25,471 nt of DNA, taken from a virus. Positions within the stretch are counted from its first letter, which is position 1. Each line of letters starts with the position of its first letter. Positions 5,626 through 6,545 of this stretch are shown here, in pieces. The stretch covers positions 1 through 25,471 of IMG/VR virus record IMGVR_UViG_3300039106_000302; one strand, 5' to 3'. The position numbers were made by a program, and so were the translations under genes. Under the pieces are notes generated by a model. It did no database searches. It saw nothing but the letters and a program-made list of their open reading frames with translations, and was not told the origin of the DNA.

Positions 5626-5747
5626 TATTAAAACATATTTGACGGATGGGATACCTGCAATGCCGCAGGATCTTGTTCGGTGCAGCTGACACTGTGCGAA
5701 AATCTTTCTTGTCAGAGATAGAAAATATTGAGTATGTTTTAATATGG
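5623..5747 (+). ncRNA. Structured non-tRNA RNA closed by a 15-bp stem
   Basis: CCATATTAAAACATA (5623-5637) is matched perfectly by its reverse complement at 5733-5747. Inside lie the hairpin CCTGC-aatgcc-GCAGG (5654-5669) and a stem CTGACA/TGTCAG (5686-5691 with 5710-5715). No anticodon arm or T loop is present. T4 has two small stable RNAs of unknown function within its tRNA cluster; this may be comparable. After tRNA-Glu is cut at its CCA, 12 bp of the closing stem would remain. Confidence 0.5.
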
Positions 5748-5925: not shown

Positions 5926-6000
5926 AGCGGTTAAATCGAATGGCTCAGATACTACTCTTTGAAAGTAGGTAAGATGGATCGTAACCATCAACCGCTGCCA
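5926..6000 (+). tRNA. tRNA-Gln (TTG)
   Basis: Acceptor AGCGGTT/AACCGCT, anticodon arm CTACT-CTTTGAA-AGTAG with TTG at 5959-5961, T arm GATGG/CCATC, G73 as usual for Gln, encoded CCA. Confidence 0.9.
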
Positions 6001-6005
6001 GTTAT

Positions 6006-6100
6006 GTCGTGGTTCCAGTTTTACCGATCTCTCAGTTAAAAGCTGTCGGTAAGTAAAGGGTAGGGAAAGCCAAACCTTCTGGCAATAAGCCACGACACCA
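6006..6100 (+). ncRNA. tRNA-like RNA: acceptor stem and CCA without tRNA body
   Basis: GTCGTGG (6006-6012) pairs perfectly with CCACGAC (6090-6096), followed by A73-like A and an encoded CCA (6098-6100), exactly as in the neighbouring tRNAs. The 77 bases between do not form D, anticodon and T arms and contain no T-loop motif. They offer CCAG/CTGG (6015-6018 with 6079-6082), a long hairpin TTACCGA/TCGGTAA (6021-6027 with 6046-6052) and AAGG/CCTT (6056-6059 with 6075-6078). It would be matured like a tRNA. Function unknown. Confidence 0.6.
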
Positions 6101-6102
6101 GT

Positions 6103-6181
6103 TTCGTAGTAGTTTGAGTAGGCACTCATGCTGGAAGATTCCAGTCAAGATCGCAACTTGGGGTTCGAGTCCCAGCTACGG
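6103..6181 (+). ncRNA. Aberrant tRNA or tRNA-like RNA
   Basis: TTCGTAG pairs with CTACGGA (6174-6180 region) and a T-arm-like GGGG-TTCGAGT-CCC is present. Where the anticodon arm should be, GCTGG-AAGATT-CCAGT has a six-base loop without T33, so no anticodon can be read; an alternative arm TCAAG-ATCGCAA-CTTGG overlaps the T arm. No CCA is encoded. It may be a decayed tRNA, a tRNA mimic, or a tRNA with a base lost. Confidence 0.45.
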
Positions 6182-6193
6182 ATTTAGTTTTAC

Positions 6194-6284
6194 GGAGGGT
6201 TATGCACTCGGGGATAGTGCGTCTGTTTTGAAAGCAGAGCGAACGTGAAAACGTCAGGGGTTCGATTCCGCCATCCCTCCGCCA
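6194..6284 (+). tRNA. tRNA-Ser (TGA)
   Basis: Acceptor GGAGGG/CCCTCC, D stem GCAC/GTGC, anticodon arm TCTGT-TTTGAAA-GCAGA with TGA at 6229-6231, class II variable arm with ACGT/ACGT pairing, G73 and encoded CCA. One extra A near the acceptor-T junction. Confidence 0.88.
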
Positions 6285-6458
6285 GTTTTAAAGTTTGGAA
6301 GAAAGCTATGACATTATGTATTCGAGGTTAGGAGAGCATAGCAAACCGTCCGATTTTGAGTAAAAGGTAGAAATGCCTGACTGCTCTAAGCTAAGTTGCT
6401 AAAGCGTTATGAAGATTTTCACTGGAGCGATCGAAAATGCAACATCCAGTAAGAATAT
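6285..6458 (+). other. 174-base gap in the tRNA block with pairing potential
   Basis: No gene or tRNA is recognised. Pairings visible: GCTATG/CATAGC (6305-6310 with 6337-6342) and ACTGG/CCAGT (6421-6425 with 6446-6450). By position and length it could hold one or two further small RNAs. Confidence 0.3.
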
Positions 6459-6545
6459 GGAAGATGATTGTACAAGGTTGTACACACTGATTGCTAATCA
6501 GTAGGATCCGAAAGGATTTGGGATCGATACCTACTTCTTCCGCCA
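6459..6545 (+). tRNA. tRNA-Ser (GCT)
   Basis: Acceptor GGAAGA/TCTTCC, anticodon arm ACTGA-TTGCTAA-TCAGT with GCT at 6493-6495, class II variable arm GGATCC-gaaa-GGAT(TT), G73, encoded CCA. Confidence 0.9.

Follow-up and report, generated by a model that had tools for sequence, protein, structure and literature searches.

A 95-nt element in the tRNA array of an uncultured T4-type phage combines the acceptor-like stem and encoded CCA of a tRNA with a structured body that is not a tRNA, and 58 distinct sequences from uncultured phages share this architecture. We rate these sequences as a new RNA family, absent from Rfam, within the known kind of small RNAs from phage tRNA clusters. How the RNA matures and what it targets are inferences, and there are no transcript, 5′ or 3′ end, or binding data for the element.

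The window analysed here is the whole stretch of 25,471 nucleotides, a 25-kb fragment of an uncultured T4-type phage (Pfam T4_baseplate, gp19 tail tube, gp32 and PhoH). The array surrounding the element holds 24 tRNAs by ARAGORN and covers all 20 amino acids. Within the element, GUCGUGG is fully complementary to CCACGAC, 77 nt are enclosed, A6097 has no partner and positions 6098–6100 encode CCA; each of these features had been described in the initial annotation and is present in the letters. According to a first-order Markov control, a perfect 7-bp stem followed by NCCA at tRNA-like spacing is expected by chance 0.15 times in this array, and the remaining perfect-stem matches in this array are tRNAs. 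The annotation had also proposed a different multi-helix body and a tRNA slot two bases ahead of the next tRNA-like element. Both hold: the predicted fold of the 95-mer has an energy of −33.0 kcal/mol (z = −4.5; all 200 shuffles were less stable) and covarying P1, P2 and P3, and an element with a T arm (about 6103–6187) starts 2 nt past its end. The family consensus, slightly unlike the single-sequence fold of the 95-mer, consists of P1 (7 bp), P2 (about 4–5 bp), P3 (7 bp) with a UCUCU bulge and the hairpin CAGUU-NAA-AGCUG, and then P4. The features are as follows.

6006–6100, + strand: whole element, 95-nt CCA-ended non-tRNA structured RNA (fold z −4.5; covariance models R1 and R2)
6006–6012, + strand: P1 5′ strand, acceptor-like stem, GUCGUGG (P1 pairing 99.8%; 3–5 pair types per position)
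6015–6018, + strand: P2 5′ strand CCAG, partner 6079–6082 (P2 pairing 98.6%; all five family pairs compensated)
6021–6027, + strand: P3 5′ strand UUACCGA, partner 6046–6052 (P3 pairing 98.0%; six of seven pairs compensated)
6028–6032, + strand: invariant 5-nt bulge UCUCU (constant in all members, including the six homologues found without the tip as key)
6033–6045, + strand: P3b, invariant apical hairpin CAGUU-AAA-AGCUG, first loop base variable
6046–6052, + strand: P3 3′ strand UCGGUAA
6053–6058, + strand: semi-conserved single strand GURAAG, GUAAAG in the window (alignments A3 and A5)
6058–6078, + strand: P4 hairpin region, variable in length and sequence (64–78% of cells paired)
6079–6082, + strand: P2 3′ strand CUGG
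6090–6096, + strand: P1 3′ strand CCACGAC
6097–6100, + strand: discriminator-like A and encoded CCA (NCCA in 52 of 63 unique family rows)
5926–6000, + strand: upstream neighbour tRNA-Gln, 5 nt from the element (ARAGORN)
6194–6284, + strand: tRNA-Ser(TGA), downstream in the same array (ARAGORN)

BLAST with the element gave no match in isolate phages, and exact-acceptor pattern scans of IMG/VR returned only chance matches or coding sequence, none of it in tRNA arrays. Early searches with R1, a covariance model built from the single sequence at 6006–6100 of the window, found nothing in approximately 90 array loci of moderately related phages and 50 whole contigs. When 42 further stretches were fetched by the conserved motif TATTCGAGGTTAGGAGAG between two serine tRNAs, R1 recognised six full-length homologues among them (E-values 2e-14 to 2e-12). 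These six were found without the tip as a search key. Their acceptor stem has changed from GUCGUGG/CCACGAC to GUCGCAG/CUGYGAC, and their tip core is constant except for one free loop base. Using the tip as key fetched 89 IMG/VR stretches, and R1 matched all of those that were searched with it. R2, a covariance model from 19 sequences, detected 75 loci at E ≤ 6e-9, and it is these loci, all from uncultured phages, that yield the 58 distinct sequences. No true member was found by searching for the exact core in approximately 85,000 bacterial and archaeal species genomes, where two matches were rejected as chance with no tRNAs close by, or by BLAST in 50,697 isolate phage records. Near-matches in the isolate phages PspYZU08, UFJF_PfSW6 and Javan271 were also rejected; the conserved pairing is broken or the core is missing, and no annotated tRNA adjoins them.

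The initial annotation had stated that an absence of covariation among homologues would refute its reading. Homologues exist, and nearly every position of P1, P2 and P3 covaries. Members share a 7-bp acceptor-like stem, a 5-bp stem, a stem tipped by the bulge and hairpin, a variable hairpin and, mostly, an encoded NCCA. The pairing percentages listed above were measured over the 58 distinct sequences, in which all pairs of P1 and P2 and six of the seven in P3 have compensatory changes; acceptor positions show up to five pair types each. The covariation score was 0.674 in a sequence-only MAFFT alignment, compared to 0.220 for shuffled columns and no more than 0.14 when partners were slid, and 0.645 for the 58 distinct sequences. 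The alignment of the 58 was fitted to the model and alignment A5 was not. Column shuffles keep the make-up of the columns but not their relatedness, so these comparisons do not amount to p-values; the slid-partner control keeps relatedness. P4 is real though variable, and it is clear in the single folds of three members (L419, L391 and L459). Two compact members lack P2 and keep the 7-bp stem with ACCA or UCUA. Together, the homologues and the covariation support the suggestion in the annotation of a new small RNA class. Another of its suggestions, a decoy for tRNA-binding factors, stays no more than a possibility.

The most constant part of the family is the tip, AUCUCU-CAGUU-NAA-AGCUG-U. P3b, the UCUCU bulge and the closing A-U pair never vary. 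The exact tip was the key that fetched most of the 75 loci; the invariance is thus circular in part, and variants could exist. The six homologues found without that key, and the absence of tip variants from approximately 155 further array loci searched with R2, argue from sequence comparison that the invariance is real. An intramolecular pseudoknot between UCUCU and AGGGA is possible in the window, but it is not general to the family and was rejected.

As the annotation had it, the enclosed bases make neither a T arm nor an anticodon arm. ARAGORN passes over the element and reports no tRNA on any family member examined, and there is no match to the Rfam tRNA model RF00005 for the window at E ≤ 10 or for eight other members at E ≤ 1. 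Nine members scanned against 4227 Rfam models (E ≤ 1 to 10) gave no match, and neither the models of tmRNA (RF00023), GOLLD and ROOL nor that of YrlA/Y RNA-like (RF02553) matched the elements. Selenocysteine tRNA, which is also about 95 nt, was rejected with no RF01852 match on the element. The element resembles a tRNA in genomic slot, strand, size, 7-bp acceptor, discriminator and CCA, but differs in having no D, anticodon or T arm and, in the members examined, no match to a tRNA model. We found no account of the family in the open-access literature, a scope that leaves out most subscription papers.

The encoded CCA behaves differently from that of the surrounding tRNAs. Among the 63 unique rows, those without NCCA after P1 include incomplete, misregistered and point-variant (NCUA) rows; a few members have NCUA, NCCC or no CCA. 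In 25 arrays whose tRNAs are mostly CCA-less, CCA is encoded by 39 of 437 tRNAs (9%) compared to NCCA in 21 of 25 elements (84%; Fisher p-value 6e-17), with the tRNA counts depending on the tRNA ends assigned by ARAGORN. Because the elements encode CCA where the tRNAs mostly do not, we infer that it is kept for its own sake. Its retention in these arrays and by the compact members shows that the acceptor-like end belongs to the element itself and is not taken over from the habits of the phage's tRNAs. In several arrays with CCA-less tRNAs, the next tRNA starts 0–1 nt past the CCA of the element. The CCA-adding enzyme may not recognise a body without a T arm; this is established enzyme knowledge, untested for the element, and if recognition fails an encoded CCA would be expected. 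An encoded CCA among CCA-less tRNAs is a natural experiment on the substrates of the CCA-adding enzyme and RNase P.

At the family level, same-strand tRNAs accompany 55 of the 56 distinct elements whose acceptor stem is clear, and of the 1310 tRNAs counted at element loci, 1309 are on the same strand and 1 is on the opposite strand. The upstream tRNA lies within 10 nt in 32 of 53 cases and the downstream tRNA in 34 of 49. Neighbours vary by lineage, with elements following Tyr, Trp, Asn or Gln, or standing between Lys and Val. All carriers with a detectable gp23 capsid gene belong to the T4 superfamily, with gp23 identities down to 27%. Distribution is patchy, and because the element is missing from the closest syntenic arrays (Glu-Tyr-Lys-Gln-Ser-Ser; L328, L329, L330, L334 and L336 in the series L328–L336), it must be dispensable. 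The family is kept across phages with capsid proteins only about 30% identical, yet it is unrecorded in Rfam.

Several other RNAs were observed in phage tRNA arrays. In the window, a second conserved structured motif, GGRAGAAAGCYRYRAC...GUAUUCGAGGUUAGGAGAG...GCAAACCGYCC, lies at 6297–6351 between tRNA-Ser TGA and tRNA-Ser GCT. Its 22 distinct copies come from phage loci that have tRNA arrays and keep 98.5% of pairs; the covariation score is 0.628 compared to 0.228 when shuffled, there is no Rfam match, and the motif is possibly another new RNA family. The neighbour at 6103–6187 and an element of a second phage in the same slot (L334, 6136–6211) have a T arm and acceptor stem without an encoded CCA; the anticodon stem is apparently capped by a 4-nt loop (AGAT, or GATT in L334), and both are apparently tRNAs without an anticodon. 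Between tRNA-Glu and tRNA-Tyr, positions 5626–5744 form a multibranched RNA closed by a stem of about 17 bp (UAUUAAAACAUAUUUGA/UUGAGUAUGUUUUAAUA; z −4.7), with a clear homologue in L329 at about 2826–2947. Many relatives have inverted-repeat arms like those of this RNA (AAACAYAYU..AGURUGUUU) between their tRNAs. ARAGORN overlooked a tRNA-Ser(GCT) at 6457–6543 with the T-loop variant GATCGATAC, and tRNAs of several relatives have the variant T loops AGCGTTA and GATCGTTAC. Elements of 61–133 nt with an acceptor stem and NCCA but no recognisable tRNA body occupy tRNA slots elsewhere and are unrelated by R2 (L258 4642–4774 and 5903–6020; L289 8144–8265; L257 6306–6366; L212 11414–11478; L249 2229–2289). 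Phage arrays may hold several kinds of such RNAs. tRNA-like genes of about 130 nt with a hairpin inserted in the tRNA body occur in L287 (8446–8575, reverse strand) and L203 (9530–9658). Finally, related phages (ClpP relatives, L004–L073) have permuted tmRNA genes, most of whose tags end in ALAA, approximately 1–3 kb upstream of ClpP; none is found there in the window.

Decayed and odd tRNAs do occur in phage arrays, and the neighbour at about 6103–6187 is tRNA-like without an encoded CCA. The element could in principle be a degenerate or rearranged tRNA gene whose acceptor stem survived by chance or reflects recent decay. However, a single non-tRNA fold is kept by 58 distinct sequences across T4-superfamily phages, and decay does not produce compensation at nearly every P1–P3 pair together with an invariant tip. 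This explanation is refuted by the covariation, and we give it next to no credence. An unusual decoding tRNA, or a tRNA mimic that enters the ribosome, is another reading: P1 and P2 (12 bp) would correspond to the acceptor and T arm, P3 and P3b (approximately 10 layers) to the D/anticodon arm, and the tip UUNAAAG to a 7-nt anticodon loop. The CCA and the arm lengths fit tRNA geometry (alignments A5 and A6), and the tip has U33-like and A37-like bases. Against this, the first base of the 'anticodon' is A, C, G or U across members, there is no T loop, the 5-nt bulge breaks the arm, and neither the acceptor stem nor the discriminator has common identity bases. Decoding is, in our judgement, quite unlikely.

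The invariant, unpaired pyrimidine bulge and a layout suited to an autonomous stable small RNA would also fit a trans-acting antisense or regulatory RNA, with the UCUCU/NAA tip pairing to, for example, purine-rich Shine-Dalgarno sites or host RNAs and the tRNA-like end serving processing and stability only. The unpaired part is, however, very short and confined to the bulge, and the complementarity of the tip to E. coli rRNA was not above that of shuffled tips and suggested no target. We consider antisense action unlikely, without dismissing it. An element that acts in cis, in processing or attenuating the array transcript (as a spacer or RNase site, for instance), and is never a free RNA would explain the position inside a polycistronic tRNA array, but only a minority of arrays carry the element, its positions differ and lie between different tRNAs, and cis-processing alone needs neither the invariant tip nor the CCA end. 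It is very unlikely to account for the family.

The best explanation overall, which we hold to be rather probable, is a stable small RNA matured from the tRNA operon that shows its invariant tip to a host partner. The suggestion in the annotation that tRNA enzymes mature the element fits its tRNA slot, its same-strand operon, its acceptor-like stem and its retained CCA, but it has not been shown. The element would be co-transcribed inside the polycistronic tRNA precursor, and host RNase P would cut its 5′ end. Bacterial RNase P is reported to cleave a non-tRNA pseudoknot RNA with a required 3′ RCCA (PMC12710915). Either a cut at the following tRNA or ordinary trimming from the 3′ side could free the 3′ CCA end; where the next tRNA lies 0–1 nt downstream, the cut freeing that tRNA would directly release the CCA. 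The predicted product is a stable, exonuclease-resistant 95-nt RNA that owes its stability to the CCA-ended stem, with the tRNA-like end acting as a device for maturation and stability. The working part would be the AUCUCU-CAGUU-NAA-AGCUG-U tip, offered to a conserved host partner on a rod about as long as a tRNA arm. This tip is likely the binding site of a trans partner, though no partner is indicated and there are no binding data. A protein of translation, of tRNA metabolism or of a tRNA-targeting defence seems the most likely partner, for which the RNA may be a decoy or adaptor. More tentatively, and as a possibility we cannot yet call probable, these RNAs would constitute a new class of phage effector, with tRNA look-alike ends and rod length, a non-tRNA body and maturation by host tRNA enzymes, whose tip captures a host factor, of translation or of a tRNA-targeting defence, in infection.

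Phage tRNA arrays are interpreted as devices for codon supply or anti-defence, and their non-tRNA contents are usually ignored. Plant-virus tRNA-like structures are non-decoding RNAs whose tRNA-type CCA end is used by tRNA enzymes, but they differ from the element in lying at the 3′ ends of viral genomes and in having other folds. tmRNA is likewise non-decoding, with a CCA end of tRNA type on which tRNA enzymes act (PMC3985003), but unlike the element it contains both a T arm and a tag ORF. GOLLD and ROOL are structured RNAs of phages and prophages, often beside tRNA islands and, like the element, without a known function (PMC12286853). They differ in being far larger multimeric cages (many GOLLD exceed 800 nt) and Rfam families, and a tRNA-type CCA end has not been reported for them.

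By setting, the nearest analogues are T4 species 1 (rnaC, 139 nt) and species 2 (rnaD, 119 nt), small stable RNAs inside a T4-type tRNA cluster that were detected by northern blot, are expressed late and have unknown function (PMC9697503). rnaD ends in ..CACC(A), similar to the element. In contrast to the element, neither RNA has the invariant tip; rnaC retains a T arm, and rnaD has no terminal acceptor stem. R2 reached at best 8.9 bits in the T4 region (L293; E about 1, filters off), with no match at E ≤ 1 under default filters; judged by this model, the element is not homologous to rnaC or rnaD. A GGTAAGT motif common to rnaD and two other array RNAs was dropped, as it is not kept by the family. 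rnaC and rnaD have had no known function for decades. Strong covariation and an invariant tip make the function of the present family testable, with the tip usable as bait.
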